Assembly (NCBI RefSeq): GCF_000953135.1
Contig: NZ_LN614827.1
Span: 1,517,001-1,581,000 of the forward strand
Reading direction: 5' to 3'
Source: Legionella fallonii LLAP-10
GTDB lineage: Bacteria > Pseudomonadota > Gammaproteobacteria > Legionellales > Legionellaceae
DNA length: 64,000 nt
In this document: positions 3,163-24,250 of the stretch, piece after piece
Layout: every line of letters starts with the position of its first letter
How positions within the stretch are numbered: the first letter of the stretch is position 1
Program-made: the position numbers and the translations under genes
The notes under the pieces: model-generated
Databases searched by the model: none
The model's input: only the letters and a program-made list of their open reading frames with translations
Told to the model about the DNA's origin: nothing

Positions 3163-3197
3163 TATCAGCCTCTTGAGTAACCGAAAGAATATACTAA

Positions 3198-3998
3198 TTA
3201 CAGAGTCATTGAGCAAGTCTGTTGTTTGGAAAGAGGCACATCATCTAATTCTAATTGATAAGTTTTAGGTTCTTCATGTGCATGTAATGGGCCTTTACCG
3301 TGGTAAGGGCGAGGGGAATTTATTTCTTCAAGTTCATTTTTCGGCCCCAATGACTTAACCATTTGATCGTGGCTAGTCGATGGAACAGGAGTTGGTGGAT
3401 GATTGTCACAGGTATAATTTAGCCAAATTTCAGCAACAAGGATACTTAGGCCTGCAATAGTGATAGCTGAAACTACAAGTATAGGAATGGTCAGAGGAGG
3501 AAATAAGAAAATTAAGGTAGCACTAAGGGCTGTTGCCACGCTAATAGCTGCTAACGTGGTAGCATAGGACGAATAAGCCTCTTGATAACTATGAGAGTAA
3601 TTTTCGTCTTTAGGGTGGGGATTGTTTAGTTTGTGATATTCACTAGTGGCCCACATTAAATTACTGGCTACAAATAGCCAAGCTGCGGGGAGTAATAGTA
3701 CAGGAGCAAAAAATCCTGCAATGCTTAACACCGTTGCAATAAGTCCAAGAATGGCTGCAAATAGGTGTTGCTCCTTAAATTGTGCAAAACCATACCATTC
3801 TTCTTCATTATAAGTATGCTCTGGATGGAAATGGCTGCTTATAAACCATACGCCATACCCCATCATATAGAGTATTAGCGAGATCCCATTACAAATAGGG
3901 GCAGCAAGAGGGAACGGTAGGTACTGAGCTTTCCCACACACGAAACCAGAAAGAAAGAAAAATGAACTAACTTTACCCAAGATTGATGTTGTACTCAT
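3198..3998 (-). CDS. Multi-spanning membrane protein of unknown function
   Basis: A 266-residue protein I do not recognise. It has about six hydrophobic segments (near residues 7-27, 33-55, 78-100, 100-118, 145-168 and 168-192) and then a polar cytosolic-type tail of roughly 70 residues. The tail is rich in Pro, His and Glu, with an ELEE patch about 50 residues from the end. It lies upstream of cdd on the same strand, 35 bases away, but nothing ties it to nucleoside metabolism. A long polar tail after a helical membrane region is seen in some Legionella secreted proteins; here that is only a possibility. Confidence 0.7.
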   Translation of the reverse strand: MSTTSILGKVSSFFFLSGFVCGKAQYLPFPLAAPICNGISLILYMMGYGVWFISSHFHPEHTYNEEEWYGFAQFKEQHLFAAILGLIATVLSIAGFFAPVLLLPAAWLFVASNLMWATSEYHKLNNPHPKDENYSHSYQEAYSSYATTLAAISVATALSATLIFLFPPLTIPILVVSAITIAGLSILVAEIWLNYTCDNHPPTPVPSTSHDQMVKSLGPKNELEEINSPRPYHGKGPLHAHEEPKTYQLELDDVPLSKQQTCSMTL

Positions 3999-4181
3999 TA
4001 AACCCGAGCCCTCAACATGATATTTTTTTGTACATATTACATGAATTTGTGACTAAAATCCAGTGAAAATTGGTTTAAATGCTAACTTTAAAAAACTATT
4101 TCTATTTTTTAGCAATTTAAAGTGGCTTTTGGACTATTTAGAGTAAAGTAGAGGATGATGAACGGATACTATTTAAAATAA

Positions 4182-5567
4182 TTAGTTTATCGTTTCATTG
4201 TTTGGAGATAAGCGTAAAGGAAGAATAATGCGAACTAATAGCCCTCCGTCCTCTGCATTTTTAGCAATAATTTCCCCATGGTGTAAGGTTATCGCTCTAG
4301 ATGCTATGGCTAATCCTAGACCATAACCACCGGTTTTCTTCGTTCTTGACGTATCCACTCGGTAAAAAGGGTTAAATATTTTCTCTAATTGATCTTCGGG
4401 AACTCCCGGACCATTATCTTTAACATCCAGATAGATTTTATCCTTAGCATCATTATGGTGAAGGGATATATGGATTTGTTGATGTTCCGGAGTATAGTGC
4501 AGGGCATTACGTACTATATTTTCAATGGCTCTATGAATTAAACGTTTATCGACTATTAGCTGACAGGGCTCTATTGTTTCAGTGCTAATACGATTGAGCT
4601 GATCTCCTGATTCATAATTAGCGTCATGTATAATATCTGATATTAATTCAGGGATATTAGTTTTAGCCAATTGAAGATCTGTGGTTGATTTATCCAAACG
4701 GGCAAAATCTAAGATCTCACTAATTAAAGCATTTAATCTAGAGCTTTCGAGCTCCATACGATTAAACTCATTGTCAGCTAAATGATTGGTTTTCTTTTTG
4801 CCTAACTCAATAGCAATATTCAGACGTGCTAATGGGGAGCGTAACTCATGGGAAATATCTTGTAATAAACGTTCTTTAGAGCGAACTAATGCTTCTAATT
4901 GTTCTGCCATGCGGTCAAAATCTTTACTTAATTCGGCAATTTCATCTTTTTTATGGCCTCTAAAATGCCCCACACGGGTATAAAGTTTTCCTGTCGCTAT
5001 GGATTTTGCTGCCATTCCTAACGTTCTGAGTGGCTGGGTTAAATACATGGAGAGTAAGTAACAAATAAGACCACTAATAAAAATCGCTAAAGTTAGGCGT
5101 ATGGCAAGTCCTGCCCAAGGAATTTGAACAAAATAAGATATAGGTTTTTCACTTACAGCGGCTAATCTATAAAATTTGCCTGATGTGGATAAAATTTCAT
5201 GGCTGACTATTAATTTTCCTGCAGTAAAGATCCCTTCACTCAGCTGATCGTTAATAAGATTTTCAGCAACTTTTTTGACGCTTTCCGGAGGATCTTGCGC
5301 ACCAACAATTTCGCCGCTGCTTGAAAGCAACCATAGGGACATATGCCGGGATAGGCCTATTTGATTAAGCCATTTGAGTAGAGCAGACCTTTGTCCTGAC
5401 TCAAAGGTAGCGACAGCCGCATTTGCATAGCTGTCCATAAACATTTGTTCTCGCACGGGTTGAGATGATTTTTGTGCAATTTGACTCGTAACCCAGGCTG
5501 TAGTGAAAATAATCAGTATGGTGGCTAACCAAAACGAAACGAATATTTTCCAATACAAACTACGCAT
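4182..5567 (-). CDS. cpxA: Sensor histidine kinase CpxA
   Basis: Inner-membrane sensor of envelope stress that phosphorylates CpxR. The 461-residue protein has two membrane helices bracketing a periplasmic domain (about residues 30-155), a HAMP linker, the phospho-acceptor motif DISHELRSPLARLN, an N-box with NIVRNALHYTPE, and the DNGPGVPE and GGYGLGLAI ATP-binding motifs. I chose the ATG at 5567, which overlaps the end of cpxR by eight bases; an upstream TTG at 5582 is the alternative. In Legionella pneumophila CpxRA is known to control several dot/icm and effector genes. Confidence 0.9.
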   Translation of the reverse strand: MRSLYWKIFVSFWLATILIIFTTAWVTSQIAQKSSQPVREQMFMDSYANAAVATFESGQRSALLKWLNQIGLSRHMSLWLLSSSGEIVGAQDPPESVKKVAENLINDQLSEGIFTAGKLIVSHEILSTSGKFYRLAAVSEKPISYFVQIPWAGLAIRLTLAIFISGLICYLLSMYLTQPLRTLGMAAKSIATGKLYTRVGHFRGHKKDEIAELSKDFDRMAEQLEALVRSKERLLQDISHELRSPLARLNIAIELGKKKTNHLADNEFNRMELESSRLNALISEILDFARLDKSTTDLQLAKTNIPELISDIIHDANYESGDQLNRISTETIEPCQLIVDKRLIHRAIENIVRNALHYTPEHQQIHISLHHNDAKDKIYLDVKDNGPGVPEDQLEKIFNPFYRVDTSRTKKTGGYGLGLAIASRAITLHHGEIIAKNAEDGGLLVRIILPLRLSPNNETIN

Positions 5568-6240
5568 TAAACATGTACCCAAATCCGCGAACCGTTTTTA
5601 CTATAGGTTCTCCTTCTGGATTATCACCTAATTTGTTTCTCAAATTACTAATGTGGACATCGATACTTCTATCATAGGCAGTATATTTTCTGCCTAGGGC
5701 GTATTCTGTTAGTTCTTCTTTCGAAAAGGCTTGCCCTGGTGACTTAATTAACATTTCTAAAATATTAAACTCAGCATTAGTTAATTCAAGAAATTTTCCT
5801 GCCATAGTGACATGGCGTTTTGAGCAGTCAACAACAATATCATGGTGCTCAATAACCGGTCTCGATATGGGGATTTTCATAGTCCGTCTTAAAATAGCTC
5901 TTAAACGAGCAACTAGCTCACGAGGATTACATGGTTTAGGCAAATAATCGTCTGCACCAATTTCTAATCCCACGATTCTGTCTATATCATCTCCTCGGGC
6001 GGTTAACATTAAAACAGGAGTTTCTAGGTGTTCTCTTATTGCTTTTAAGACTTCGAAGCCATTTAATTTAGGCAACATTACGTCAAGAACAATCGCGTCA
6101 AACACCTGGTTTAATGCTTTTTTAATACCACTTTCGCCGTCATGAACACATACTACATTAAATCCCTCGGGCTCCAAATATTGGGTGAGCAAGTCAGTAA
6201 GCTCTGCGTCATCATCAACGATGAGAATATTGCTATTCAT
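5560..6240 (-). CDS. cpxR: Response regulator CpxR
   Basis: OmpR-family DNA-binding regulator, 226 residues: receiver domain (residues 1-120) with acidic pocket D9-D10, phospho-acceptor D53 in VLDVMLP and K102 region KPCNPREL, followed by a winged-helix domain ending in the usual TVRGFGYMF. It is transcribed just ahead of cpxA, with overlap, and follows corC by three bases. It may therefore be co-transcribed with the phoH-ybeY-corC genes upstream, an uncommon arrangement worth noting. Confidence 0.92.
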   Translation of the reverse strand: MNSNILIVDDDAELTDLLTQYLEPEGFNVVCVHDGESGIKKALNQVFDAIVLDVMLPKLNGFEVLKAIREHLETPVLMLTARGDDIDRIVGLEIGADDYLPKPCNPRELVARLRAILRRTMKIPISRPVIEHHDIVVDCSKRHVTMAGKFLELTNAEFNILEMLIKSPGQAFSKEELTEYALGRKYTAYDRSIDVHISNLRNKLGDNPEGEPIVKTVRGFGYMFNA

Positions 6241-6243
6241 TAA

Positions 6244-7110
6244 TTATCCTTCAATATTAGTTTTTGAGCTGTTGCTTTGAGGTCGTTTATCGATACATTC
6301 TAATAATTTAATTCTGCGGGCATCGGCATTAATTACTTTAAATTCTAGATTATCTATGGTGATCGTTTCACCGCGTTTTGGTAGGTATCCAAAGCTATTC
6401 ATCACAATACCACCAATTGTATCGTAGATATCATCGCTGAAATTAGTATGCATCTGCTCATTAAATTCTTCAATAGGTGTATGTGCTTTAATAATATAAT
6501 GATGGTCGTGGTGAGTTTTGATATAGGCGTCATCATCTATATCAAACTCATCTTCAATATCGCCTATAATCTGTTCAATAATATCTTCTATAGTGATGAA
6601 ACCAGAAACTTCTCCATATTCATCAACAACGATAGCCATATGATTGCGATTACAACGAAATTCGCTAAGCAAACTGTCTAGGCGTTTGCTTTCAGGAACA
6701 AAGGTCACTTGCCTGCAGGTATCGAGCAAATCAAAAGAATCAGGATTTCCTACTTGAGAGTTTAATAAATCTTTGGCATGTAGTATGCCAATAATTTCAT
6801 CTGAATTTTCACCAGTTACAGGAAAGCGTGAATGTCCAGTTCGTGTAACAACTTTAATGATTTCATTATATTCATCATCTTGATTGAGACAAACCATTTG
6901 ATTTTTAGGCAGCATGATGTCACGTGCCCGCATTTTCGAGAAGTGAATGGCGCCTTCTATCATGGCCAAAGTTTCAGAACTAATTAGAGATCTGATTTGT
7001 GCATCTCTTAATAGATTTACAAGCTCTTCCTGATTTTGTGGCTCACCTTGTAAAAACTGTTTCAGTCGAACAAACCACGAACCACCTTCTTCCTCTTTAT
7101 TCAAGATCAT
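6244..7110 (-). CDS. corC: CBS-domain protein CorC/YbeX (HlyC/CorC family)
   Basis: A 288-residue soluble protein with two CBS domains (about residues 65-190; MLPKNQMVCLN and the DEYGEVSGFITIEDIIE signature) and a C-terminal CorC_HlyC domain. The family has been linked to magnesium/cobalt efflux and, for YbeX, to ribosome homeostasis. Its ATG lies inside the end of ybeY (14-base overlap). The phoH-ybeY-corC order is conserved in gammaproteobacteria; the usual next gene, lnt, is missing here and cpxR follows instead. Confidence 0.9.
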   Translation of the reverse strand: MILNKEEEGGSWFVRLKQFLQGEPQNQEELVNLLRDAQIRSLISSETLAMIEGAIHFSKMRARDIMLPKNQMVCLNQDDEYNEIIKVVTRTGHSRFPVTGENSDEIIGILHAKDLLNSQVGNPDSFDLLDTCRQVTFVPESKRLDSLLSEFRCNRNHMAIVVDEYGEVSGFITIEDIIEQIIGDIEDEFDIDDDAYIKTHHDHHYIIKAHTPIEEFNEQMHTNFSDDIYDTIGGIVMNSFGYLPKRGETITIDNLEFKVINADARRIKLLECIDKRPQSNSSKTNIEG

Positions 7111-7573
7111 TTACCTCTAAGTCATAGGGATTGGAATAACCTAGCTCATTTAAAAGTTTTATTTCAAGTGATTGCATTACAGAGGCTTCGTCTTCTTTAA
7201 TATGATCGTAGCCTAACAGATGCAGGACTCCATGAATTACTATTAGAGACCAATGTTCTTTAAGTGATTTGTTAAGTTGTTGGCTTTCAGCCAGTAATAC
7301 TTCAGGACAAATAATAATATCGCCTAATAGAGGGTATTCAAGTTCTACATGTTCAGGTACTGAACTGGGGAAGGCAAGCACATTAGTCGGTTTATTTTGT
7401 TTTCTATAGGTATGATTTAAAAAAATCATTTCGTCAGAATTGACTAAACGTATCGTTAATTCAGCATCATCTTGATGATCCCTGAGCGCAAGCTCAGCCA
7501 GACTGATTAATTCACCATCAGCTAAAGGCAATGGGGTATCAGTGGCATTTTGGAGGTCAATATGGTATGTCAT
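7097..7573 (-). CDS. ybeY: Endoribonuclease YbeY
   Basis: Zinc-dependent endoribonuclease needed for 16S rRNA 3' end maturation and ribosome quality control. The 158-residue protein carries the metal motif H114-x3-H118-x5-H124 in HGVLHLLGYDH and the substrate-site segment RKQNKPTNVLAFP. The start overlaps the phoH stop by four bases and the end overlaps corC, so the three genes are translated as a coupled set. Confidence 0.94.
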   Translation of the reverse strand: MTYHIDLQNATDTPLPLADGELISLAELALRDHQDDAELTIRLVNSDEMIFLNHTYRKQNKPTNVLAFPSSVPEHVELEYPLLGDIIICPEVLLAESQQLNKSLKEHWSLIVIHGVLHLLGYDHIKEDEASVMQSLEIKLLNELGYSNPYDLEVNDLE

Positions 7574-8520
7574 TTTTTATTCTCTTTATATTCATGGTCA
7601 TAACAGTCGACAATTTTAGACACTAAGGGATGTCTTACAACTTCACGACTAGTAAATTTATGAATGCTTATTTCTGGAATATTTTTAAATAAATCGAGCG
7701 CATGAGCAAGTCCAGAATCAGTTCCTTTGGGTAAGTCAACTTGAGTGATATCACCAGTTATGACTGTTTTAGAGCCGAAACCCATTCGAGTTAAAAACAT
7801 TTTCATTTGCATGATCGTTGTATTTTGAGCCTCATCCAATATGATAAATGATTCATTTAGAGTGCGACCACGCATAAAGGCGAGAGGTAAAACTTCAATA
7901 ATATCACTCTGAATCATTTTTTGGGTTTCTTTAAAACCAATCATTTCATATAAGGCATCGTATATTGGCCGTAGATAAGGGAGTACTTTTTCGACTAAAT
8001 CTCCAGGTAGGAATCCTAATTTTTCACCAGCCTCAACCGCGGGGCGAACAAAAATAAGTCTATGTACCTCTCCTTTTTCAAAACTTTCTATGGCTTTAGA
8101 TACTGCAAGATAGGTTTTACCTGTTCCAGCTGGTCCAACAGCAAAAGTGATGTCACAACGATCAATTGCATCAAGGAACTCTGCTTGTTTATTATTTCGG
8201 GCTGCAATTATTTTGCGAGATAACTTTATATGATGAGTCATTGCGCTTTGATAATCCTCACTAATTAAAACACGAATTGTTTGTATATCTATGGGGCTCT
8301 TCGATAAAGGATACAATAAGTTAAGTATTTTTCTTACTTCATGAAATTGCTCTTCGCGCTGACCGTGTAGAATAACAACGTTCTGCTTAAGCTTTATGGT
8401 TAAATTGAAATATTCTTCTAGAAATTTAAAATTACTATGTAAAACTCCGCAAAGATTGGCAATTTCTTGCGTACTAAGAGGTGGTAATTTTATAATGTTA
8501 CTGTTCAGCGTACTACTCAA
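7570..8520 (-). CDS. phoH: PhoH-family ATPase YbeZ
   Basis: A 316-residue P-loop ATPase that works with YbeY in rRNA processing. Walker A is GPAGTGKT (about residue 130) and Walker B is FIILDEAQNTT. The start codon is TTG: an in-frame TAG lies five codons upstream and no ATG follows for a long way, so TTG at 8520 is the best choice although its ribosome site is weak. It is the first gene of the leftward phoH-ybeY-corC-(cpxRA) run. Confidence 0.9.
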   Translation of the reverse strand: MSSTLNSNIIKLPPLSTQEIANLCGVLHSNFKFLEEYFNLTIKLKQNVVILHGQREEQFHEVRKILNLLYPLSKSPIDIQTIRVLISEDYQSAMTHHIKLSRKIIAARNNKQAEFLDAIDRCDITFAVGPAGTGKTYLAVSKAIESFEKGEVHRLIFVRPAVEAGEKLGFLPGDLVEKVLPYLRPIYDALYEMIGFKETQKMIQSDIIEVLPLAFMRGRTLNESFIILDEAQNTTIMQMKMFLTRMGFGSKTVITGDITQVDLPKGTDSGLAHALDLFKNIPEISIHKFTSREVVRHPLVSKIVDCYDHEYKENKK

Positions 8521-8950
8521 GGGTCTTTTAATCTACTTAATAACCATACTTTAAGAATAGTTCAAAAGCTATATCTTCTGCAAGTTTAATCGATCTAATT
8601 AATGTTAATCGCGAGTTTGGGATACGAGCGCGGGACAATGTAGATTGGATGCTGCGTTAGCATACCCCAGGAACGGTGTGGGAGCAAAAATCAGGAGAAA
8701 CACCGCATTAGAAATTCTTTGTATACCCAACTATGGTGCAATAAAGTCAATCTTGATCTTGGGTTACGCTAACGCTGCACCCAGGCCAAAACTAAATCTT
8801 CCCTATTACACCGCGCTAGTACGGATTACGTATCTTCTTTTCTTTAAGGTAGTGCCATTAGAGCCTACATTACTCATAAAACTGATTACGAAATGCTGAT
8901 TTAGTTGATATACATGTTATAATCTTTTGATTTTAGAGTAATTCATTTTT
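8521..8950. other. 430-base intergenic region with degenerate repeat fragments
   Basis: The gap between divergent phoH and trpH holds no credible gene. It has two patches resembling the palindromic repeat seen at 13800: a tgtagattgg motif followed by a gctgcgttagcataccc stretch (about 8638-8668), and tgggttacgctaacgctgca near 8760-8779. They look like decayed copies of a dispersed repeat. The last 40 bases carry the trpH promoter. Confidence 0.5.
8915..8923 (+). promoter_or_regulatory. Extended -10 promoter of trpH
   Basis: TGTTATAAT is a perfect extended -10 element (TG-n-TATAAT), 28 bases before the trpH ATG. A -35 box is poor (tgctga, 18 bases upstream), as is usual when the extended -10 is strong. 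Confidence 0.6.
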
Positions 8951-9775
8951 ATGATAGATCTTCATTGCCATAGTACCTTCTCTGATGGGATGTTAAGTCC
9001 TGAGGAATTGATAAAAAAAGCTCAAATGCATGGGGTAAGGTGTTTGTCTCTTACTGATCATGACACTGTGGCTGGTTATACTGCACTAAATCAAGCGGCT
9101 GCAAGTACTGATATTAAAATTATCCATGGAATAGAATTGAGTACGCGGTGGAAAAAATATGATATTCATATATTAGGCTATCAAATCAATCATACATCTC
9201 AGTTCAATGAATTAATTGAACATCAGAATCGAAGTAGGGTTGATCGGGCAATAGAAGTCGCTAATCTGCTGCAACGAGTGGGTGTGGAGGATGCTTATAA
9301 CAAAGCCTGTGTGCTTGCGGGTCATAAACGAATTGGACGACCGCATTTTGCTCACCTTCTTATTAATGAAGGCAAGGCACGAGACATGAAATCTGCTTTT
9401 AAACAGTTTTTGGGGCGGGGCAAAGTGGCCTATATTCCAACTCCATGGATTACTGTAGAGGAAGCCGTTAAGGGAATAATAGAGGCTGGTGGCGAAGCCG
9501 TTATAGCCCATCCACTTAAGTACGGATTGACGCGTTCTAAACTGCATGAGTTAATCAAAGATTTTAAGGGGGCTGGAGGTGTCGGCATGGAGGTCGTTTC
9601 AGGGGAAGTGACAGTGACACAAATACAAGAAATGGCTGCAACATGTATACGATTCAATTTATTGGCCTCTTCCGGTTCAGACTTTCATGGTGACACAATT
9701 TCTCGCATAAATCTTGGACGACAGCAGCAACTACCAGTAAACTGTCAACCTATTTGGCACAATTGGAACATTTAA
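8951..9775 (+). CDS. trpH: PHP-domain phosphoesterase TrpH/YciV (RNase AM type)
   Basis: A 274-residue PHP-family metal-dependent phosphoesterase. In E. coli the homologue removes 5' nucleotides from RNA (RNase AM) and acts on 3',5'-bisphosphonucleotides. The start DLHCHSTFSDGMLSPEEL with LTDHDT gives the first metal motifs; RPHFAHLL and a final GSDFHGD supply later ligands. It is followed after 11 bases by yciO, the same neighbour as in E. coli (yciV-yciO), and opens a long rightward operon. Confidence 0.88.
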   Translation: MIDLHCHSTFSDGMLSPEELIKKAQMHGVRCLSLTDHDTVAGYTALNQAAASTDIKIIHGIELSTRWKKYDIHILGYQINHTSQFNELIEHQNRSRVDRAIEVANLLQRVGVEDAYNKACVLAGHKRIGRPHFAHLLINEGKARDMKSAFKQFLGRGKVAYIPTPWITVEEAVKGIIEAGGEAVIAHPLKYGLTRSKLHELIKDFKGAGGVGMEVVSGEVTVTQIQEMAATCIRFNLLASSGSDFHGDTISRINLGRQQQLPVNCQPIWHNWNI

Positions 9776-14028: not shown

Positions 14029-16464
14029 TTATTGATTTTTAAGCCAATTACTAATATGCTCTTTCGTCAAATCAATAGCATCCATGAGTTGTTTATATAA
14101 CTCTTCCAGTAAATTAGACTGTCCATTCTTTTGGTAACGTTCTAAATATTCGCAAGCAATTTTGAATCGAATCATGCCACAATAAGCTGCACCTCCTTTC
14201 ATTTTATGGGCTAGAGATTGTATTTTACTCCAATCTTTTTGGGCATAGGCCTGTTCTATTTTTATTCTGTCTTCATCAATACCATGGTGAAGCATTAGAG
14301 TGACCATATCGGATAATAACTTTTTATTTCCTAAAATATTAATTCCCTTTTCTAAGTCAAATAAGGGAAACTGAGAGATATTTAATAATTCTTCATCAGG
14401 TGGTAAGTCGGTTTTTTTAAGGAGTTCAATCGTCGCTGCATTTGCAGTATTCTTTTCTTTATGATTGATAAACTCTTCAACAATACCCTGAATAAGTTTG
14501 AATGTGGCTGGTTTGATCAGTATCTTATCCATTCCCCCGTGAAGGCATTTTTCAGTCTCTGCACCTACAGTATGTGCCGTTAATCCTACTATAGGTGTTC
14601 TTTTTCTATTAGACTGCTTTTCCCATTGACGAATAGCCTTAGTTAGTTCTCTACCTGACATACCTGGTAAACCAACATCTGTTACAATTAAATCAAAGGC
14701 CTTAATTTTTATTAACTCTAGAGCCAATAACGCATTTTCAGCCGATTCATAACGACAACCGACATTGCTAGCGGCAATTTGCAACATTTTAAGGGCGATA
14801 GGACTATCTTCTACTAATAATAGATAGGGAGCTTCTGGATTAATTACTATTGGTTGATTTAGGGGAATTTGATTATCTAAAGAGGTGTTTGTCGTTTTTT
14901 CTTCCATTCCTTTTACAATGTTAGGTTCATCATATTTGATGTTTTCTGCGAGGCCAATTTTTAATAACAAATCAAAATAGAAAGTGGTTCCATGGTTAAC
15001 TTGACTAATTAATTTAATTTCCCCACCTAAAAGCTCAACATAAGACTGAGCAATATGTAGTCCAATTCCATGTCCTTTATATACGCCTTTATACGAAGGG
15101 TTTACTCTAAAAAAACGATCAAATACTTTTGATTGCAATTCTTCAGGAATACCAATACCGGTATCAATGACGCTAAATCGTAGACGAACAGAGTCCTCAA
15201 AACGTTCAAGTAGCTCAACGTCAATACCAATATACCCTTTTTCGGTAAATTTAATAGAGTTGCCTACTAGATTTAATAAGATTCTATGCAGTTTAGTAGG
15301 ATCACTCACGAGATACTGGGGAACCTTTTCCGGGATATTAATTATTAGATCGAGATTTTTTAGTTTGATTGTTGGTAATTCAAGTTCCGCAATATCTTGA
15401 ATGGAACTATATAAATCAAACGTCTCATTTAAAAGATCACTATCGTTGACATTTTCCGCGGAAATTACGTCCAATATCCCATTGAGTAAGCTTAATAATT
15501 GTTTGCCACTTTCATTAACCCAATGAGCATATTGTTTTTCTTCTGCATCGTTAGTTTTATCTTCCATAATTTTGGACATGCCAATAACTCCCGTGAGAGG
15601 TGTGCGAATATCGTGACTCATATTGGCAATAAATTCCGTTTTAGCTTGATTAGCCGCTTCTGCGGCTATTTTGGAAGCTCGAAGTTCTTCTTCCATTTTT
15701 TTTATGGAAGTAATGTCCGTAGAAATACCAATAGTTCCTATGACATTATTATCTTTGTCAAGTAAAGGTTCTTTAGAGGTAAGAAAGGTATGGACTTGTC
15801 CATCGGCTAGAGTAGCTGTTTCTTCTAATTTAATTCCTTTTTGGCTACTCATTATTTTTTGATCAGTTTCAATGATTTTATCTGCTTGATCTTTCCAAAC
15901 AAAATCATAATCTGTTTTGCCTATTACTTCTGATGGATCATTGAATCCTGCCAATTTTGCATGCGATAAATTGCTACCCAAAATAACATTATGTGTGTCT
16001 TTCCAATAGATATTCGCAGGGATGAGGTGAATTAAACTGTCAAGATAAGTCTCTGTTTTTCTTTGATTTTTTTGTAAAGAGTCTATTTTTTCGGTTAGGG
16101 AAAAAATAGACTCATAATCATCAGATAAATCCTTTTCAAAGAAAACGGTAATGCCACAAAAATAGATCTGAACAACTTGAAAGGTTACTGATTTATTGAG
16201 GGCAATGAAATAAGTTCTATTAAATGAGCCAATATTTTCAGGGTCCATTTTTTTATTAGAAAAACGAATTCCTAAATTTTCAATAAATGAATGCTGTGTT
16301 TGACCAATTAAATCAGACTTGCTCTTCAAACAAAGAAACTTACGGTATGATTCATTGCAACCTAAGTATGCATCCTCGCTATTCACCCAAAAAACATGAA
16401 TTGAAGAGTTGTTAAATGCTTTATTTAATAAAAAATTCAATATCTTTTTAGCAATCCAACTCAT
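14029..16464 (-). CDS. Hybrid sensor histidine kinase (PAS-PAS-HisKA-HATPase-REC-HPt)
   Basis: An 811-residue kinase with no membrane helix, so probably cytosolic. The order is: PAS-like sensor domain (about 20-120), second PAS/PAC (about 140-255), phospho-acceptor H284 in NMSHDIRTPLTG, ATP-binding domain (about 385-500; IDTGIGIP, GHGIGLHIA), receiver with D596 in VTDVGLPGMSG, and a C-terminal HPt with H753 in LAHKMKGGAA. This is the ArcB-like full phosphorelay layout, and every phosphoryl-transfer residue is present. No response regulator gene is adjacent. The start overlaps the end of the synthetase gene by 17 bases, so the two are expressed together. The partner regulator and the ligand are unknown. 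Confidence 0.9.
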   Translation of the reverse strand: MSWIAKKILNFLLNKAFNNSSIHVFWVNSEDAYLGCNESYRKFLCLKSKSDLIGQTQHSFIENLGIRFSNKKMDPENIGSFNRTYFIALNKSVTFQVVQIYFCGITVFFEKDLSDDYESIFSLTEKIDSLQKNQRKTETYLDSLIHLIPANIYWKDTHNVILGSNLSHAKLAGFNDPSEVIGKTDYDFVWKDQADKIIETDQKIMSSQKGIKLEETATLADGQVHTFLTSKEPLLDKDNNVIGTIGISTDITSIKKMEEELRASKIAAEAANQAKTEFIANMSHDIRTPLTGVIGMSKIMEDKTNDAEEKQYAHWVNESGKQLLSLLNGILDVISAENVNDSDLLNETFDLYSSIQDIAELELPTIKLKNLDLIINIPEKVPQYLVSDPTKLHRILLNLVGNSIKFTEKGYIGIDVELLERFEDSVRLRFSVIDTGIGIPEELQSKVFDRFFRVNPSYKGVYKGHGIGLHIAQSYVELLGGEIKLISQVNHGTTFYFDLLLKIGLAENIKYDEPNIVKGMEEKTTNTSLDNQIPLNQPIVINPEAPYLLLVEDSPIALKMLQIAASNVGCRYESAENALLALELIKIKAFDLIVTDVGLPGMSGRELTKAIRQWEKQSNRKRTPIVGLTAHTVGAETEKCLHGGMDKILIKPATFKLIQGIVEEFINHKEKNTANAATIELLKKTDLPPDEELLNISQFPLFDLEKGINILGNKKLLSDMVTLMLHHGIDEDRIKIEQAYAQKDWSKIQSLAHKMKGGAAYCGMIRFKIACEYLERYQKNGQSNLLEELYKQLMDAIDLTKEHISNWLKNQ

Positions 16465-19400
16465 TCAAAGTATCCGCAAAATAATTGTGTAGTGTGTCGC
16501 TAATATACCTTACATTGGGAAATTGGAGAATTGAATCATGGTTCCCAGGTGTTAAATAAACGTCAATTTCTTTAGCTGAATGAAGACTTAAGAAATTTGT
16601 AGCATCATTCATGGCTGAAAACTCGCCTGCTTGTTGCTGCGCTTTAAATAACATAATTCTTTTCTTAATTTTAGGTGGAGTATAAGCGAATCCTAAATCT
16701 TGCAAGCGGCAGTAATAAAGCTCCATCCATGGTTTTGGGTCAATATTTTCATTGGATAGTGCTTTTGCTACTCGTTCATATTGATTCATGATACTTGCCT
16801 TCAGTGCTTCTTTTGCACTTATATCCATAAAATCTGATACAACCCACGTATCAAAGGAAATGATAAAATCAATGCAGTCATCAAGTTTTTTTTCTTCGAG
16901 TTGGGCCGTCATTTCTAGGGCGAGCATGCCACCAAAAGAGTATCCTGCGAGAATAAACTTGCTATTTTTTATTTGTTTTAAAAGTAGGTGATTATAATAT
17001 TTTGCCATGGAATGTATGTCATCAAATAAAATTTGATTAGCATCGATGCTAGGATCTTGAATAAGATAGCAAGGTTGATCATTGGGTAGTAGTTTGATTA
17101 AATCAAGATAACAAAAACCAGTACCACCTATTGGATGGATAAATACGATAGGGGTTTTATGATTGCTCCCAATTTTAATAATCTTAAGTGCATTCTCATA
17201 CTGTTTTGCATGATCAACAGTAGATGAAAAATGTGCTTCACTGATTAGAAGGCTGATTTTTTCACTTAGTAATTTAACAGTTGCGTATTCATATAATAGA
17301 GAGAAATTGATTTTTACATGAAATTGATCATTTATCCTACTTATGAGATTCAGTGCTGAAATAGAATTTCCGCCTATATCAAAAAATTCTGCATTAATAC
17401 TAATATTCTTGGGGTTTATACGTAATATTTCAGCATATATAGATATTAATTTTTCCTGCAATAAACTAGCAGCAGACTCATATTCGGTATAGCTTGTGTA
17501 ATGCAAATCCATCTTGGCGAGTAATTTTTTATCTGCTTTGCCATTTTCTGTTAATGGAACTGTATCTATTTGGTGATAAAAATTGGGGATCATATAGTGA
17601 GGTAAAAAGGTTTTTAAATAATGATACAAATTAATATCAGTAAGTGAGTTTCCTTCTTGTAATAATACGTAGGCAAATAGTTGGTGATGATGATCTTTAT
17701 TTTTTACAAGAACTATTGCTTGTTCAACAAGATGATGAGTTTCTAATTGAGCCTCAATCTCATTCAATTCAATGCGGTATCCATTAATTTTAATTTGATT
17801 GTCTTCTCTACCGATAAATTTTAAATGCCCGTTGGTTTGCCAGGTAACAATATCACCGGTGTCATAAAGTCTTTTATTATGATGAGTAATAAATTTTTCT
17901 TGATTTAATTGAGGCTGATTAATATATCCGCGAGCTAACCCAACTCCCCCTAAATATAATTTTCCAGGGGCACCAATGGGTTTTGGATTCATATCTTTAC
18001 CTAATACATACACTTGGGTACCAGTAAGCGGTTGACCAATAGGTATAGGATTCACTATATCTCTTTGATTTTTAACCACATAAGTTGTTGAAAAAGTAGT
18101 ATTCTCTGTTGGTCCATATCCATTTATAAAATAGCGAGGTCTTTTTTTCTGTTGAAATACTCGTTCGATCGCCTCGGACAGTACAGCTTCACCGCCAACA
18201 GCTAGATAAGTAAGATGCTGAAACAGATAAGGTGCGGTATAGGCATATGCGTGAAATAGTTGAGTTGTTAGAAAAAGTATGGATATTTCTTCGTTTTTTA
18301 ATATAGATGAAAATAAGTGCTCATCGAGAAGAGTCTGTTTATCAATAAGTACTAATGTAGCACCATTAAGTAGGGCTCCCCATATTTCAAGAGTGGCTGC
18401 ATCAAAAAGAAAACTAGAGGTTTGAGCAACTCTATCGGATGATTTTATTTTTATATAATTTGCGTTTTTTACTAATCTTAGTATTCCTGCTTGTTCAACG
18501 CTTACACCTTTAGGGGTTCCAGTGGAGCCAGAAGTATATAGAATATAAGTTAACTGATTAGGATTAAATTGATTATTATCTACAGGTGAATCTGATTCAG
18601 CCTGGATACTATTATCAGTAATAGATATTTTAGTCACAGAGGGTGATATTTCCTCTATATTGGGGATAAGTTCATTACTAGTGATAATGATTGATATACT
18701 GGCATTATTAATAATGTAGCTAATGCGAGCAGCAGGTATATCAATTTCCAAAGGAACATAGCATCCACCGGCTTTTAATATACCCAAAATAGCAATAATT
18801 CGATTAATGCCTTTTTCCAGAAAAATACCGATAGGCATTTCTGGACTGATCATTGTTTTTTGTAATTTATGAGCCAGTTGATTAGAAATTTTGTCTAGTT
18901 GCTCATAGGTTAAAGTATTTTCATGATGTTTTACGGCTATTTTATTCGGGTGGGCTGATACTTGTTCGGCAAAATAATTTAAAATGGTTACATGCTCTGG
19001 TTCATTTATAATCGGTGGATTCCATTTATAAAATAGAGTATTTATTTGCGTGTCTGTTAACAGAGGAATACTAAGAGCGGGGCGATCTTGATAGACAGCT
19101 ATATTTTTGAGAAGCGTCTTAAACGCTGAAATCATATGTGTAATGGTGTTTTTATTAAACAGTAATGTATTGTATTCAAATATTCCATGTAATTCAGAAT
19201 TAAATTCCTGCATATAACAAACTAGGTTTCCGAATCTGCATTCATCGCAGGAGTCATAAATTAATTCAGCATGATCGTCTGAATAAACTCTTTTACATAC
19301 TTCATTGTTAATTACGAGTTCATTAATGGGGTAACTTTGAAATATAAAACCAGCTTGACTAAACGAATGAATTTTGGAGTTGACCTGTTCTCCAGTTAGT

Positions 19401-22399
19401 TGCGCCATTTCATTGAAAGGAAAATCTTGGTTTTCAAATACGTCGTGTAATAATTTTTTATTTTTCCTAATTAGTGCATCAAATGTTTCATCAGGATTCA
19501 GATGTAATCTAATTAAAAGCAAATTAACGAAAAAACCTATAACGTGCGCCACATGAGAGTGGTGCCTTCCTGATACAGCAGTTATAAAATTAACATCATT
19601 TTGGTTGGAGTAGTGTGATAAAAATAATCCAAAAGCGGTAATAAGTACATCGTATAAAGTGGCTTGATTATTAATAGAGATTTTTTTAAGTTGTCGTGTA
19701 ACAGTATTACTTATTTTAAAATTAATCCGTTTGCTTAATTGTTTTTCAGTTCCTTCTTTTCTAGCCTTATCATAAATTAACTCTAGTTTAGGCATTTTAT
19801 TTAGTTGTTTTACCCAAAAATCCTTTTGTTTCGTTAACAGTTCTTCCGATATATTATCTCTTTGCCAAGAAATGAAATTTAGAAATGAGGACTGGTTTGT
19901 TATAGATAAAGGAATATTTTTCGAAAGAGTATTATAAAGTTGGCTGAGATCATGTAACAAAATATTTAATGACCAGCCATCATGTATTATATGGTGAATA
20001 CAAAATAGAAAAATGGTCTTGTCTTTTTCTATGTGAGCTAAGGATACTCGAAATAGAGGAGCGGCCCCAAGATCAAAATGTTGGTGCTTAAATTTCTTTA
20101 GATAATTTCCGAAATCCTGATTGGCTAAATTTTTAAAGATATCAATTTTGAAATCAATTGATTCTAACGGATTTAAAATTATAAATGGTTGATTCTCTTG
20201 TTCTGAGAATGAAAATCGTAAAGCATCATGGCGGGCCATTAGCTGTTTAAAAGCCTTCTTTAAGTGTTCTTTACTCACATTGCCTTTGATTTCATAAGCG
20301 ACAAATATGTTGTTTTTTCTGCTTTCCGGAGAAATTTTTTCATCGTACCATATTCGTTTTTGCGCAGATGATAGTGGAATAGTATCGTATCCTATTAAAT
20401 TTAAAGCAGGGGCTTTTATTTCTGTTTGCTTAATTTCTTTTAATAAAAGCTTGAGGAATTTGTCTATAGTATAATTAGGTTTTAATAAATCAAAAGGCGT
20501 GATTTCTATCTGATATCTTTGGTATATATCGCTAGCAATTAATACACTTTTAAGCGAGTCAATACCAAGATCAATAAATGAGATATCAGTTTTTTTTGTC
20601 CATAAATCATGTTGTTTCAGAATTTCTAATATGCTGATTTCAAGAGCATCGGTACCTTGGGTGATATTCCGTTTCGACTCTTTAGTGTTCATGCTTTTTT
20701 GGAAATGCTCATTGGCAATTTCCAACATAAAACCATTCGAAATGTTCGTTTGATGAGAGTCCTTTTTGTTTTGTATTGTACTTTGATTTTTTTGCTCAAA
20801 AATTTCAGGAGAAATTTCTTTAATAAAATCAATGGATAGTATTATATGATCGATTGGCTCTTGATTATTCTGGCCATTTAATTGCTTAATAAAATTAATA
20901 GCAGGAATATTCTTTTCTGTTTTCGTGAATCGTAACTTTATCGTGCTTATGCCATTTTGTGACGCAGTATCTGCCAAATGCTTTATTATTTCGAATTCTA
21001 TGCCTCGACCTAAAATTCGGCAACTTAAAAAGAAGCCATTAATAATAAGTTCATTATTATGAAAATCATATGCTACAACACCAACTAATCCATATTCACC
21101 GTATTTATCTGAGACCTCTATAACTAAACAATGTGGCTTTTTATTATGGATACTATGTTCAAATTCGACAGCGGATATGGTGTTGGGTAATAAATTAAAT
21201 TGGTTGGTTCTTTGACTTAATTGGATTACTCTTTGTAAATCATTTGTTGTTGCCTCACGAATGCAGGTTTTAATTTTGAGATTTTTTATGAATTGTTCAT
21301 ATGAAAAGCTTTTTTCTTTTAATTGATGACGTAATTTATTTTGTTTATAAAATTCAGTTCTTTTTTCATCTTCGTTACTTTTTTCAAGGTAATCAAAAGC
21401 CCAGATATTTCTTAAAAAATGTGATCTATTAAAGTTAGAGTTTTTTTCACTGTTACTTCTTTTGGGCAATTCAATAACAAATACTTCGGGGATAGTAGAT
21501 TTAACTTCGGCGCATTCTATGTTGTTATCATCTATAAAAATAAAACTATCCAGACCAAGATTCAGCTCTTGAGCTAAAGATTGAATATTAATTGATTTGG
21601 GTTGCCAATTAATTCTATGACCGCAAATATGCTTTTCAAGATCTAACACTATATCTTCATGGTTCTTAAACACGTTTAAAACAGAGGACTCGCTATTTTT
21701 ACTACAAAGACATAATAGGAATCCGGCATGATGAAGTTCAATCATAAACTCTTGTATTGCAACGTATTCTTCATCAATGATAATGCCATTGATCCCATCT
21801 TCTTCTATTATTCCATTCCATAATGTACCGTCGCAGTCTAGTACAATAACTTTGCTAGGCTTTCTTGAAAGTAAGGAGTATTTTCTTGCTATTGTTAATC
21901 CCATCAAATTATAAAAATCTAGACTATATGGAATGTGTCCATGTTTTTCGGTGAAATTATCAAATATAAGAGATAAATTAGATTCCTTTAACATTTCTTT
22001 TGAGGTCACCAACAGAGTGTTTTTCCAAGCATGGCTTTCTAGCTGGATCTGGTTTTCAATTTTTGTGTAAAATTGTTCATCGTTTTGAGATTTAACCTCT
22101 GTAGGTGTGATGATGATTAATAGGGGAATACGTTTGGTTCTATTAAAGCGGTGTAATGCTGTCAATAATTCTTCCGGGCTTTGAGCCGAATCATTTAATG
22201 GGTTAAACAAGTCGGATAGCCTGACTAAAATGACATTAACACCTTCTTCGTTTTGGTTAAATTCACTATTCGGTAAGAGTATCTGTTGAAAAGTTTGGTT
22301 GTAAAAGAACTGAATTTTTTGCTCAGAAAACTTTTTTAAAATCGACTGCAAAGAGGGTCTGAGTATGTCAGCAGTGAATGTCGATGTGATATTAATCAT
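16448..22399 (-). CDS. FkbH-primed single-module nonribosomal peptide synthetase
   Basis: A 1983-residue multidomain enzyme. Residues 1-540 are FkbH-like: HAD motif DCDGTLW at about 188-194, then a GNAT-like half with QRTNQFNLL and FFLSCRILGRG. A carrier domain follows (DSLKS, Ser 615), then condensation (HHIIHDG at 802-808, intact), adenylation (TSGSTGTPKG at 1289; NGYGPTE; LTENGKADKK), a second carrier (GGNS, Ser 1679) and a thioesterase (GYSFGG with Ser 1821; GNHDS with His 1954). FkbH proteins are known to load a glyceryl unit from 1,3-bisphosphoglycerate onto a carrier. The expected product is therefore a glyceryl-amino acid, freed or cyclised by the thioesterase. The start at 22399 has an AAGG site and a promoter just upstream; a start 45 bases earlier would overlap that -10 box. 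Confidence 0.9.
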   Translation of the reverse strand: MINITSTFTADILRPSLQSILKKFSEQKIQFFYNQTFQQILLPNSEFNQNEEGVNVILVRLSDLFNPLNDSAQSPEELLTALHRFNRTKRIPLLIIITPTEVKSQNDEQFYTKIENQIQLESHAWKNTLLVTSKEMLKESNLSLIFDNFTEKHGHIPYSLDFYNLMGLTIARKYSLLSRKPSKVIVLDCDGTLWNGIIEEDGINGIIIDEEYVAIQEFMIELHHAGFLLCLCSKNSESSVLNVFKNHEDIVLDLEKHICGHRINWQPKSINIQSLAQELNLGLDSFIFIDDNNIECAEVKSTIPEVFVIELPKRSNSEKNSNFNRSHFLRNIWAFDYLEKSNEDEKRTEFYKQNKLRHQLKEKSFSYEQFIKNLKIKTCIREATTNDLQRVIQLSQRTNQFNLLPNTISAVEFEHSIHNKKPHCLVIEVSDKYGEYGLVGVVAYDFHNNELIINGFFLSCRILGRGIEFEIIKHLADTASQNGISTIKLRFTKTEKNIPAINFIKQLNGQNNQEPIDHIILSIDFIKEISPEIFEQKNQSTIQNKKDSHQTNISNGFMLEIANEHFQKSMNTKESKRNITQGTDALEISILEILKQHDLWTKKTDISFIDLGIDSLKSVLIASDIYQRYQIEITPFDLLKPNYTIDKFLKLLLKEIKQTEIKAPALNLIGYDTIPLSSAQKRIWYDEKISPESRKNNIFVAYEIKGNVSKEHLKKAFKQLMARHDALRFSFSEQENQPFIILNPLESIDFKIDIFKNLANQDFGNYLKKFKHQHFDLGAAPLFRVSLAHIEKDKTIFLFCIHHIIHDGWSLNILLHDLSQLYNTLSKNIPLSITNQSSFLNFISWQRDNISEELLTKQKDFWVKQLNKMPKLELIYDKARKEGTEKQLSKRINFKISNTVTRQLKKISINNQATLYDVLITAFGLFLSHYSNQNDVNFITAVSGRHHSHVAHVIGFFVNLLLIRLHLNPDETFDALIRKNKKLLHDVFENQDFPFNEMAQLTGEQVNSKIHSFSQAGFIFQSYPINELVINNEVCKRVYSDDHAELIYDSCDECRFGNLVCYMQEFNSELHGIFEYNTLLFNKNTITHMISAFKTLLKNIAVYQDRPALSIPLLTDTQINTLFYKWNPPIINEPEHVTILNYFAEQVSAHPNKIAVKHHENTLTYEQLDKISNQLAHKLQKTMISPEMPIGIFLEKGINRIIAILGILKAGGCYVPLEIDIPAARISYIINNASISIIITSNELIPNIEEISPSVTKISITDNSIQAESDSPVDNNQFNPNQLTYILYTSGSTGTPKGVSVEQAGILRLVKNANYIKIKSSDRVAQTSSFLFDAATLEIWGALLNGATLVLIDKQTLLDEHLFSSILKNEEISILFLTTQLFHAYAYTAPYLFQHLTYLAVGGEAVLSEAIERVFQQKKRPRYFINGYGPTENTTFSTTYVVKNQRDIVNPIPIGQPLTGTQVYVLGKDMNPKPIGAPGKLYLGGVGLARGYINQPQLNQEKFITHHNKRLYDTGDIVTWQTNGHLKFIGREDNQIKINGYRIELNEIEAQLETHHLVEQAIVLVKNKDHHHQLFAYVLLQEGNSLTDINLYHYLKTFLPHYMIPNFYHQIDTVPLTENGKADKKLLAKMDLHYTSYTEYESAASLLQEKLISIYAEILRINPKNISINAEFFDIGGNSISALNLISRINDQFHVKINFSLLYEYATVKLLSEKISLLISEAHFSSTVDHAKQYENALKIIKIGSNHKTPIVFIHPIGGTGFCYLDLIKLLPNDQPCYLIQDPSIDANQILFDDIHSMAKYYNHLLLKQIKNSKFILAGYSFGGMLALEMTAQLEEKKLDDCIDFIISFDTWVVSDFMDISAKEALKASIMNQYERVAKALSNENIDPKPWMELYYCRLQDLGFAYTPPKIKKRIMLFKAQQQAGEFSAMNDATNFLSLHSAKEIDVYLTPGNHDSILQFPNVRYISDTLHNYFADTLNELDC

Positions 22400-22435
22400 A
22401 CAGTTACCTTTAACCTTATCTATCGAATTTTTAGC

Positions 22436-22465
22436 ATTATACATTATTTAGCTTTTTTTTGTCCC
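22436..22465 (-). promoter_or_regulatory. Promoter of the synthetase-kinase operon
   Basis: On the minus strand GGGACA (22460-22465; four of six to TTGACA) and a perfect TATAAT (22436-22441) are separated by 18 bases. The -10 box ends 36 bases before the synthetase ATG. The position fits a short leader and supports the chosen start. Confidence 0.6.
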
Positions 22466-22622: not shown

Positions 22623-23588
22623 TTACTTTTCGTCTATAGTGGTGCTCCATTTGAGTGCCATACTTACTCCAATAATTATTTCAGAAAGCAAAAGTAGTTG
22701 AATTAAAAAAACAGCCATCGATATATGATTCGTATCGAATAAAGGGGCTCTCAAAAATACGGCAAAACTAAGCAGGAATCCTGAAAAGAATACAGCAGCC
22801 ATAGTGCCAACCCAACCGTAACAGACGCTAATGATAATCGTAACTATGAGATTGGCTATGGCAAGTAAAATTGTAACTAAAGGAGCATGGTTTTGGGTAA
22901 GTAAAAAACTAATGACTAGTAATAATGAATATAAACTAAGCCCTTTTATGCTCAGTTTTTTGATGGAAAGGGGTAGCTGGAAATGGCTATCCCAGGTAAC
23001 TAATGCACAAGAAAAAATAAGAATGGCATTTAAATTGGCTAACCACCATTGCAAAAATTGTTGATATGAGATCTCTTGATTTGGCATTGATAAAGAGTAG
23101 AAAAAAATAAGTAAAATAGTAGTTAGGCCTGTTAACATTGTTGTAAATAAAACAAATTTGCAATACATTGCCAATCGATAAAAAATCAATGTTGGGGCAA
23201 GAAAACGATATTGAAATGCTCTAAGAAGCACTGCTTGTAATGAGAAGACAGTGGCACAACCTACTGCGGTCACAAAAATAGCGCTTTCAAGAGTGTATGC
23301 AAGAAAACTACCTACCCAAATTCCTGGTAATATACTATAGCCACGTAAAAAAATGAGTGCACAAGCAGACCCGGTGGCATACCATAGTGGGGCTGGAAAT
23401 GGCAATAAAGTACTTAGCTTTAAACCACTGTACTGTAGCAAAAAGGTAAAACAATTTATGATGAGTAGACGTTGTAAAACAAGTTTTTTAAATTGACTTT
23501 CTAACGAAGGAGTAGACTGAAGTTGTTGAGAGTGTTGATTTACAAGGAGCGTCATTTTGTGCCATTTATTTAAATTGCTTCGAGTCAA
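22623..23588 (-). CDS. MASE1-type integral membrane sensor protein without output domain
   Basis: A 321-residue protein made of about eight to ten hydrophobic helices and little else. The segment PAPLWYATGSACALIFLRGY...ILPGIWVGSFLAYTL matches the MASE1 sensor domain, which normally sits in front of GGDEF, EAL or kinase domains; here no output domain follows. The start codon is TTG, decided by a perfect AGGAGG six bases upstream; the ATG 33 bases inside has none. It lies upstream of the synthetase on the same strand with a 223-base gap, and diverges from the methyltransferase gene. Confidence 0.75.
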   Translation of the reverse strand: MTRSNLNKWHKMTLLVNQHSQQLQSTPSLESQFKKLVLQRLLIINCFTFLLQYSGLKLSTLLPFPAPLWYATGSACALIFLRGYSILPGIWVGSFLAYTLESAIFVTAVGCATVFSLQAVLLRAFQYRFLAPTLIFYRLAMYCKFVLFTTMLTGLTTILLIFFYSLSMPNQEISYQQFLQWWLANLNAILIFSCALVTWDSHFQLPLSIKKLSIKGLSLYSLLLVISFLLTQNHAPLVTILLAIANLIVTIIISVCYGWVGTMAAVFFSGFLLSFAVFLRAPLFDTNHISMAVFLIQLLLLSEIIIGVSMALKWSTTIDEK

Positions 23589-23626
23589 GAAGAGCCTCCT
23601 ACAAACAAAAAAAGGTGAATGAGAAA

Positions 23627-24250
23627 ATGGTTGACCCTAATTCTTCATTATCCAACTTAAATATCAATGACATTGATACCCTATGTTATCATTACTTAAA
23701 TACTCTGTATTCTACTACGTTCGAGAAGCGCCGCTCAGATAAAAATATCTGTACAACCTATGGTGAAATTCTCCTACCGAGTATCGATAAACTATTACGA
23801 ATAATCAAGTGTTCTGATGATGATGTCTTTGTTGATTATGGTTCAGGTCTTGGAAAAATTGTAATACATGTTTTTCTAAAAACCGCAGTAAAAGCCTCTT
23901 ATGGCATAGAACTTTCGCCTGAATTGCACCAACAGGCTATAAATGCAGCTAAAAAGCTGCAATGTGATTTGCCTGAGTTCTATGACGGTGAGCGAAAGCT
24001 TGGATTTTTTTTAGGAGATTTTTTAGAAACTCCTGTACCCAATGCAACTATCGTTGTAATCAATGCTACTTGTTTTACACCTTCATTATTAACTAAATTA
24101 GGAAAAGTACTGGAGAATACGCCGAGTCTTCATACTGTATTATCGACGCGTCCCATTAATAGCTTACAACGCTTAACTTTTAACAAGACAGTTCGTGTTG
24201 AATGTTCATGGGATACCGCATTATGTTATATTTACGGAGGAAGGGGATAA
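23627..24250 (+). CDS. DOT1-like class I methyltransferase
   Basis: A 207-residue protein with the layout of the eukaryotic DOT1 catalytic domain. It has TYGEI (DOT1 YGE motif), the SAM-binding FVDYGSGLGKIVIHV (motif I), YGIELSPELHQQA (acidic end of strand 2), a LGDFLE segment, and VINATCFTPSLLTKLG, which corresponds to the NNFAF-type loop. DOT1 methylates histone H3 Lys79 in eukaryotes; the substrate here is unknown. Family members in Legionella could act on host chromatin or on a bacterial target. The start at 23627 has AGGTGA eight bases upstream; a GTG at 23615 is inside that site. A 34-base gap separates it from the divergent MASE1 gene. Confidence 0.75.
   Translation: MVDPNSSLSNLNINDIDTLCYHYLNTLYSTTFEKRRSDKNICTTYGEILLPSIDKLLRIIKCSDDDVFVDYGSGLGKIVIHVFLKTAVKASYGIELSPELHQQAINAAKKLQCDLPEFYDGERKLGFFLGDFLETPVPNATIVVINATCFTPSLLTKLGKVLENTPSLHTVLSTRPINSLQRLTFNKTVRVECSWDTALCYIYGGRG

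Follow-up and report, generated by a model that had tools for sequence, protein, structure and literature searches.

Single-module Synthetases Paired with VqmA-like PAS Domain Kinases in the Legionella Family: Candidate Signal-and-Sensor Cassettes

The window analyzed here is a stretch of 64,000 nucleotides from the 4.43 Mb genome of Legionella fallonii LLAP-10 (NZ_LN614827.1, positions 1,517,001 to 1,581,000). It contains a gene pair on the minus strand that consists of a single-module synthetase, with the layout FkbH-carrier-condensation (C)-adenylation (A)-carrier-thioesterase (TE), and a soluble hybrid histidine kinase (HK) in which a poorly conserved N-terminal region (PAS1) and a second PAS domain (PAS2) precede the HisKA and HATPase core, a receiver domain (REC) and an Hpt domain. 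The pair is probably a signal-and-sensor cassette, in which the product of the synthetase is sensed by the PAS2 kinase of the same operon. The initial annotation had proposed such a system from this one locus; the reading is supported, and the link is wider than was seen then, because seven main synthetase types pair with the same kinase family. The type of the adjacent synthetase is followed by PAS2 and not by the kinase core, and at one chromosomal site the synthetase and the sensor end of the kinase have been exchanged together.

Pairing of the Kinase Family with Synthetases

The kinase family is represented by 98 kinases in 97 loci, which are the best-ranked matches to the window kinase together with L075, a locus fetched via its synthetase. 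Two of the kinases begin inside the core, and the other 96 were classed by the residue at which the core starts. Kinases with a core start at or after residue 240 were designated long; this cut was chosen after seeing the data, in which no value lies between 217 and 247. An A-domain synthetase is present within 300 bp of 49 of the 55 long kinases, which have an extra N-terminal sensor region, as compared with 4 of the 41 short kinases (Fisher p = 9e-16). If L075 is omitted, 48 of 54 long kinases are paired (p = 1.3e-15). The four short kinases with a synthetase all have a C-A-PCP-reductase partner. At least one pair occurs in 40 of the 59 genomes of the set, that of the window included. The synthetase is upstream in all 39 pairs encoded on the same strand, 14 of which overlap or abut, and the 14 pairs on opposite strands are all divergent; in all 53 pairs, therefore, it is the sensor-encoding end of the kinase gene that is turned toward the synthetase. 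A kinase was also found within 1.5 kb at 25 of 26 formyltransferase (FT)-A-PCP-TE loci (in pieces at three of the 25), and the remaining locus is cut by a contig end.

The 53 partners were typed by a seeded domain search, with Pfam applied to 10 of them, and comprise seven main types: (i) FT-A-PCP-TE (13 partners); (ii) FT-A-PCP-reductase (8 partners); (iii) A-PCP-KS-AT-KR-ACP, with or without TE (13 partners; the A-polyketide synthase or A-PKS type); (iv) ACAD-A-PCP (5 partners); (v) A-methyltransferase (4 partners); (vi) C-A-PCP-reductase (4 partners); and (vii) the FkbH type (4 partners, one cut by a contig end). The other two partners are L075 and L228. There is one A domain in 52 of the 53 and two in L228, and a few partners run off the fetched stretch. 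The specificity residues of the A domains, located by motif mapping, are identical or nearly so inside most types or subtypes and more variable in the A-PKS type. They read DA(L/F)Q(A/V/L)GGTF in the FkbH type, DAFALGGTF or DAWSV(A/G)AVC in the reductase types, and DLPG(L/M)GEVS or DAWSFGLID in the TE types; the substrates that these codes may indicate are not firmly assigned.

Co-variation of PAS2 with Synthetase Type

The domains of the kinase differ in how closely they follow the synthetase. In a nearest-neighbour test of 48 kinases, with kinase pairs at least 60% identical left out and the leftovers L075 and L228 set aside, the nearest neighbour shares the synthetase type for 48 of 48 PAS2 domains and 46 of 48 PAS1 regions, and for 4 (HK), 4 (REC) and 6 (Hpt) of 48 of the remaining domains. 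At the level of subtypes, the counts out of 48 are 48 for PAS2, 43 for PAS1, 3 for HK, 4 for REC and 2 for Hpt. Shuffled labels gave about 9 of 50 for types (maximum 18) and about 5 of 50 for subtypes (maximum 13). Maximum-likelihood trees of the 52 typed kinases, from which the leftovers were excluded, give the same picture: the PAS2 tree has six type changes, which is the minimum, as compared with 20 for the HK core and 33 for shuffled labels. The genes for the synthetase and the candidate receptor are thus linked, and the candidate receptor domain co-varies with the synthetase, which are two of the features expected of a quorum-sensing synthase/receptor pair.

FkbH-type Pairs in Relatives and in Other Families

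Relatives of the window pair were sought in 143 Legionellaceae genomes, and the order-wide search took in the same number. Among the 80 loci kept when named genomes were scanned with the kinase profile, one is from Legionella (L. quateirensis, 38%) and the others carry kinases of other bacteria. Full-length FkbH-type orthologues are present in G047, G022, G024 and G132 (56-58%), and that of G083 (89% over its visible part) is cut by a contig end. A complete kinase adjoins the orthologue in four of these five genomes. The exception is G047, where the neighbour is a different kinase of 442 residues that keeps only PAS2 and is without PAS1, REC and Hpt; its PAS2 is 51-62% identical to FkbH-type PAS2s and at most 44% to those of other types, and is fused to an unrelated kinase core. 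This natural fusion of an FkbH-type PAS2 to an unrelated histidine kinase (L073:4243-6670) has a separate receiver-domain gene alongside. In G025, a broken and distantly related FkbH synthetase is accompanied by a kinase, and an FkbH fragment is also present where a contig ends. Four genomes of other families (G146, G316, G422 and G172) likewise contain FkbH-type pairs, each with a single FkbH match, located next to the kinase in an open reading frame (ORF) of roughly 2070 residues; the match in G172 falls under the NCBIfam cut-off.

Besides the window, a PAS2 kinase lies next to 10 FkbH synthetases (in G083, G047, G022, G024, G132, G146, G316, G422 and G172, and the broken synthetase of G025). 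Three others have no PAS2 kinase on their contigs (G006, G174 and G318), and two are cut by contig ends. The FkbH gene of G117 is on a contig of 5.2 kb without a PAS2 kinase, which is too short to judge. The initial annotation had named synthetases without the kinase, if as frequent as those with it, as a sign that the link is only positional; the count of 10 with and three without favours the link.

The PAS2 type also predicted the neighbouring gene in other families. In a sample of 339 genomes of the class, the PAS2 profile found matches in 163, four of them from the family. Among the PAS2 matches listed, 20 loci were used, 16 of them from other families, with flanks of up to 1.5 kb visible. 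Five of the 16 have an adjacent synthetase; four match the FkbH-type PAS2 and one the PAS2 of the two-A-domain partner, and this last locus itself adjoins a synthetase with two A domains. The other 11 loci have no synthetase, and 10 of them best match PAS2s of synthetase-less kinases and one the A-methyltransferase type. The prediction from PAS2 type was therefore right in 15 of the 16 out-of-family matches listed (one-sided Fisher p = 0.0014). A search for ACAD-A-PCP synthetases outside the family gave matches in three of 369 genomes, a sample that includes four of the family, and only the A-PCP part matched.

Exchange at One Chromosomal Site

The site beside rumA-relA is occupied by the FkbH pair in the window, by an A-methyltransferase pair in G051 and by an FT-A-PCP-reductase pair in G062. 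The FkbH pair of G083 adjoins the same rsuA-side genes, on a contig that ends inside the synthetase. In G062 the site is seen on the rumA side, and the other side shares two genes with G051. A rumA gene is present in 44 genomes, and among the 40 rumA loci of the genus that were examined, some of them short, only two have a pair at rumA, namely those of G051 and G062, which rank first and second by identity; the rumA locus L302 has a shorter HK-REC-Hpt gene. At the DNA level, G051 and G062 can be aligned across HK-REC-Hpt (80%) and from rumA onward (85%); in the interval that separates these two stretches, blastn gave no match. The identity of the two kinases is 19% in PAS1, 43% in PAS2, 90% in HK, 84% in REC and 81% in Hpt and jumps near residue 260. 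Twelve kinase pairs were selected because their identity is high in the core and low in PAS2, and each of them breaks between residues 243 and 275, at the PAS2/HisKA junction. The comparison of G051 with G062 thus reveals a block exchange of the pherotype kind at one locus, between species rather than within one. Strong homogenization of the kinase cores within genomes was expected and was only weakly seen, the nearest neighbour coming from the same genome for 6 of 63 HK and 8 of 63 REC domains as compared with 1.4 expected.

Proposed Mechanism and Alternatives

In the proposed mechanism, each synthetase would use a single amino acid to make a very small molecule. The FkbH domain of the window synthetase precedes a carrier domain, as in FkbH-loading synthetases, and presumably loads a glyceryl unit from bisphosphoglycerate; the predicted product is probably a glyceryl-capped amino acid that is released or cyclized by the TE. 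The cytosolic kinase would sense this product, arising in other cells or in the same cell, via PAS2, a relative of the VqmA PAS domain that binds the autoinducer DPO, and phosphate would pass from His284 to Asp596 to His753 and on to a putative response regulator. The synthetase and PAS block appears to be exchanged as a unit and the HisKA-REC-Hpt chassis to be kept, so that new signals could plug into an existing output, with synthase and sensor swapped together as in the comQXP pherotypes.

Several observations weigh on the other side. The likeness of PAS2s of the same type may in part reflect common descent, and some of the co-inheritance is due to linkage, because the sensor end adjoins the synthetase. 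Since the kinases were chosen by their rank in similarity to that of the window, the sample is not random. Six of the 55 long kinases have no visible synthetase, two of them (L066 and L233) on short contigs. The FkbH synthetase of G006 has no PAS2 kinase on its contig, and the longer ones of G174 and G318, outside the family (4609 and 3125 residues), have no PAS2 match on the same contig. No kinase lies within 1.5 kb of a formyltransferase-A protein of about 855 residues (L276, G124:C1:486702-489239). PAS domains that resemble VqmA are frequent in the class, and likeness to VqmA by itself therefore proves little. Finally, the best match leads narrowly in two of the five out-of-family pairs (121 versus 113 bits and 135 versus 129).

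The strongest alternative, which we nevertheless regard as unlikely, is that the kinase is an ordinary cluster-situated regulator that responds to an external or metabolic cue by turning the synthetase on, the product being an effector that is not itself sensed and that acts, for example, on amoebae or competitors. Kinases beside biosynthetic genes are common regulators, and no synthetase is in reach of 37 of the 41 short kinases in this family, so PAS2 probably can sense other things. However, a shared external cue would not cause the sensor type to track the seven main synthetase types, the A-code subtypes and the out-of-family pairs. The surroundings of the pairs also argue against this alternative: in a search for a third gene within 5 kb, no gene family, and hence no exporter or tailoring family, was present near more than six of the 53 pairs, although exporters were not searched one by one. 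The largest cluster of neighbouring genes comprises six loci, is acetyltransferase-like by our reading and lies 1.3-4.3 kb away.

It is less probable still that linkage alone accounts for the pattern, in which case the synthetase gene and the kinase 5' end would be co-inherited only through their contact while recombination reshuffles the 3' end. The orientation of the PAS-encoding end toward the synthetase in all 53 pairs and the position of the breakpoints at the PAS2/HisKA junction in the 12 selected kinase pairs are what linkage would give. Yet PAS1, which is nearer to the synthetase than PAS2, follows it less closely (43 versus 48 of 48 at the subtype level), is far less conserved within types (26% versus 55%) and is missing from G047 and the C-A-PCP-reductase kinases, which retain PAS2. 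This speaks against mere linkage, although rapid change in PAS1 could account for some of the difference, and the pairing moreover persists in two orientations and in other families. A kinase that responds by contact to the synthetase protein or its loading state, rather than to a released product, is very improbable: genes that run in the same direction are often overlapping or contiguous (14 of 39), but the seven synthetase layouts would require separate contacts, 14 of the 53 pairs are divergent, and PAS2 resembles PAS domains for small ligands.

A broader proposal, for and against which the case is about evenly balanced, is that the cassettes form a combinatorial platform, in which a common phosphorelay chassis receives interchangeable blocks of synthetase and VqmA-like PAS domain and each species uses a private set of signals read out through one or a few regulators. 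The predicted signals of such a platform are derived from one amino acid and would be glyceryl, formyl, aldehyde, dehydrogenated, methylated or ketide-extended compounds. If this is correct, one bacterial family possesses dozens of chemical languages that have yet to be read, each paired with a receiver of its own, and the sequence of a receiver predicts the kind of synthetase that adjoins it; we know of no other receptor family whose type predicts the chemistry of the adjacent signal maker. Monomodular synthetases that are otherwise mute would gain a function, the repeated junction would provide a natural set of sensor-kinase fusions, and the evolution of signal specificity could be tested over seven main chemistries rather than within one. 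The many cassettes suggest that the Legionella family holds a wide range of uncharted chemical signals, together with matching receivers.

Gene Pair of the Window and Its Surroundings

The features of the gene pair are listed in Table I. The two ORFs extend over 16448-22444 (1998 residues) and 14029-16464 (811 residues), coordinates that bear out the 17-base overlap of synthetase stop and kinase start given by the initial annotation. The likely start of the synthetase is at 22399 rather than 22444 because the G047 orthologue begins with the same residues, MINITSTFTAD. The domain layout stated at the outset was recovered with Pfam and NCBIfam, and the active-site motifs that were sought are present.

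Table I. Features of the synthetase-kinase gene pair in the window
Feature	Position	Strand	Basis and remarks
Single-module synthetase, likely true extent	16448..22399	-	Start MINITSTFTAD; ORF opens at 22444
FkbH domain, DCDGT motif	20870..21856	-	NCBIfam TIGR01686, residues 197-525, 268 bits
First carrier domain, GIDSL (motif at 627)	20441..20647	-	PP-binding, two stretches in protein; approximate boundaries
Condensation domain, HHIIHDG	19046..20386	-	PF00668, residues 687-1133
Adenylation domain, specificity residues DALQAGGTF	17525..18973	-	PF00501 and PF13193; code via motif mapping
Second carrier domain, GGNS	17261..17455	-	PF00550, residues 1664-1728
Thioesterase domain, GYSFGG	16517..17152	-	PF00975, residues 1765-1976
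Soluble hybrid sensor histidine kinase, 811 residues	14029..16464	-	ORF and Pfam; 17 bp overlap with synthetase
N-terminal region (PAS1 position), poorly conserved	16066..16464	-	No Pfam match here; PAS stretches in relatives
PAS2, VqmA-like, co-varies with synthetase type	15679..16065	-	PF08448 (PAS_4, residues 148-253)
HisKA (H284) and HATPase core; exchange independent of type	14962..15645	-	Pfam HisKA, HATPase_c
Receiver domain (D596)	14488..14820	-	PF00072 (Response_reg)
Hpt domain (H753)	14071..14277	-	PF01627

The kinase has the complete set of phosphotransfer residues that was claimed for it, and His284, Asp596 and His753 are invariant in an alignment of 18 sequences. It also has no membrane helix, as stated: the highest Kyte-Doolittle mean over 19 residues is 1.49, as compared with 2.77 in the neighbouring MASE1-like protein. 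Of the two PAS domains proposed, the second was identified by Pfam, but the first has no Pfam match and is placed by comparison with relatives, all four of which, among those examined, have two to three PAS stretches in the N-terminal part. The single promoter said to precede both genes did not stand. A TATAAT match is present at 22465-22436, but the scan returned 37 such sites versus 48.6 in shuffled sequence, and the match is therefore no evidence of a promoter.

The cassette is preceded, 178 bp upstream and on the same strand, by a gene (22623-23588) for a MASE1-like membrane protein, whose match is below the Pfam cut-off and which lacks a catalytic partner domain. A divergent DOT1-like methyltransferase gene (23615-24250) also adjoins the cassette. 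The G+C content of the cassette (14029-22444) is 32.6%, as compared with 37.0% for the window, which is in line with acquisition by transfer. An ORF for an IS110-type transposase (273 residues, only the DEDD domain matched) is located at 56834-57655. On a second contig of the genome, a 15 kb stretch matches six Legionella plasmids, in agreement with the genus, and a stretch of the third contig gave no match. The source genome contains a second cassette (L322, G000:C1:3310001-3321000, at 678-9660), in which an A-PCP-KS-AT-KR-PCP-TE synthetase of 2323 residues overlaps a PAS2-HK-REC kinase of 681 residues in which no Hpt domain was found; an ORF of 149 residues with similarity to Hpt lies just upstream.

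Some features of other loci were also recorded. A short-chain-dehydrogenase-like gene is near all four C-A-PCP-reductase pairs (L171, L175, L178 and L187), whose kinases are the only paired ones in the set with a core start before residue 240 and have no PAS1. The region of about 260-275 residues between the formyltransferase and A domains is similar in all 21 FT-type partners, and gave no Pfam match in the one case tried (L185:10394-11218, +). The L276 protein also shows no carrier or TE in view, and other proteins of similar length were found in the order-wide search, which in many of the genomes listed also revealed single-A-domain proteins of about 1075-1120 residues (e.g. G062:C34:62919-64679).

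Comparison with Known Systems

Monomodular nonribosomal peptide synthetases (NRPSs) of Legionella have already been proposed as signal makers. Tobias et al. (2016) describe clusters B-D, G and I with product predictions for several kinds and, in the sections considered here, propose clusters B-D as signal makers because a "transcriptional regulator" is nearby (PMC5126622). By description these include the same kinds as found here: an NRPS/polyketide synthase hybrid, a synthetase for an N-formyl amino acid with release by reductase or TE, and one for an acylated amino acid that is released in a similar way. Neither "kinase" nor "FkbH" occurs in the main text of that paper, and the sensor family, the co-variation of PAS2 and the block exchange do not appear in those sections (PMC5126622). 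No other paper on the pairing was found among the open-licence PubMed Central papers listed, as judged from titles and the starts of abstracts. The same genus has the Lqs system, which, in the part of its literature considered here, likewise combines an autoinducer synthase (LqsA) with a sensor kinase (LqsS). The product of LqsA is an alpha-hydroxyketone, and LqsA is not known to be a carrier-protein synthetase.

Among solved structures, the PAS2 profile matched 6ide, 6ugl and 6kju (E about 1e-15), the PAS domain of BvgS (6zj8, 4e-11) and 7dwm (6e-5); we take 6ugl to be VqmA. VqmA bears a DNA-binding helix-turn-helix domain, not a kinase. DPO is derived from amino acids and is not known to be made by a synthetase encoded beside the gene for its receptor. 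The DPO-VqmA system of Vibrio and phage VP882 shares with the cassettes a cytosolic PAS domain, and VqmA provides the nearest solved relatives of PAS2, but in place of the C-terminal helix-turn-helix the window protein has a kinase, a receiver and an Hpt domain. The structures 6IDE, 6KJU and 7DWM are of VqmA with DPO, and in the sections considered here VqmA is described as a receptor in the cytoplasm that binds the autoinducer via its PAS domain (PMC8284805).

The closest parallel to the exchange of blocks is with the comQXPA pherotypes of Bacillus, in which, according to the part of the source considered, the signal-making part and the N-terminal sensor part of the kinase are highly variable and the cytoplasmic kinase part is conserved (PMC4008528). 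The Legionella cassettes likewise combine a variable signal maker and sensor end with a conserved kinase part. However, ComX is a ribosomal peptide that is sensed outside the cell by a membrane kinase, whereas the cassettes comprise single-module synthetases and a soluble kinase and, unlike comQXPA, switch between unlike chemistries.
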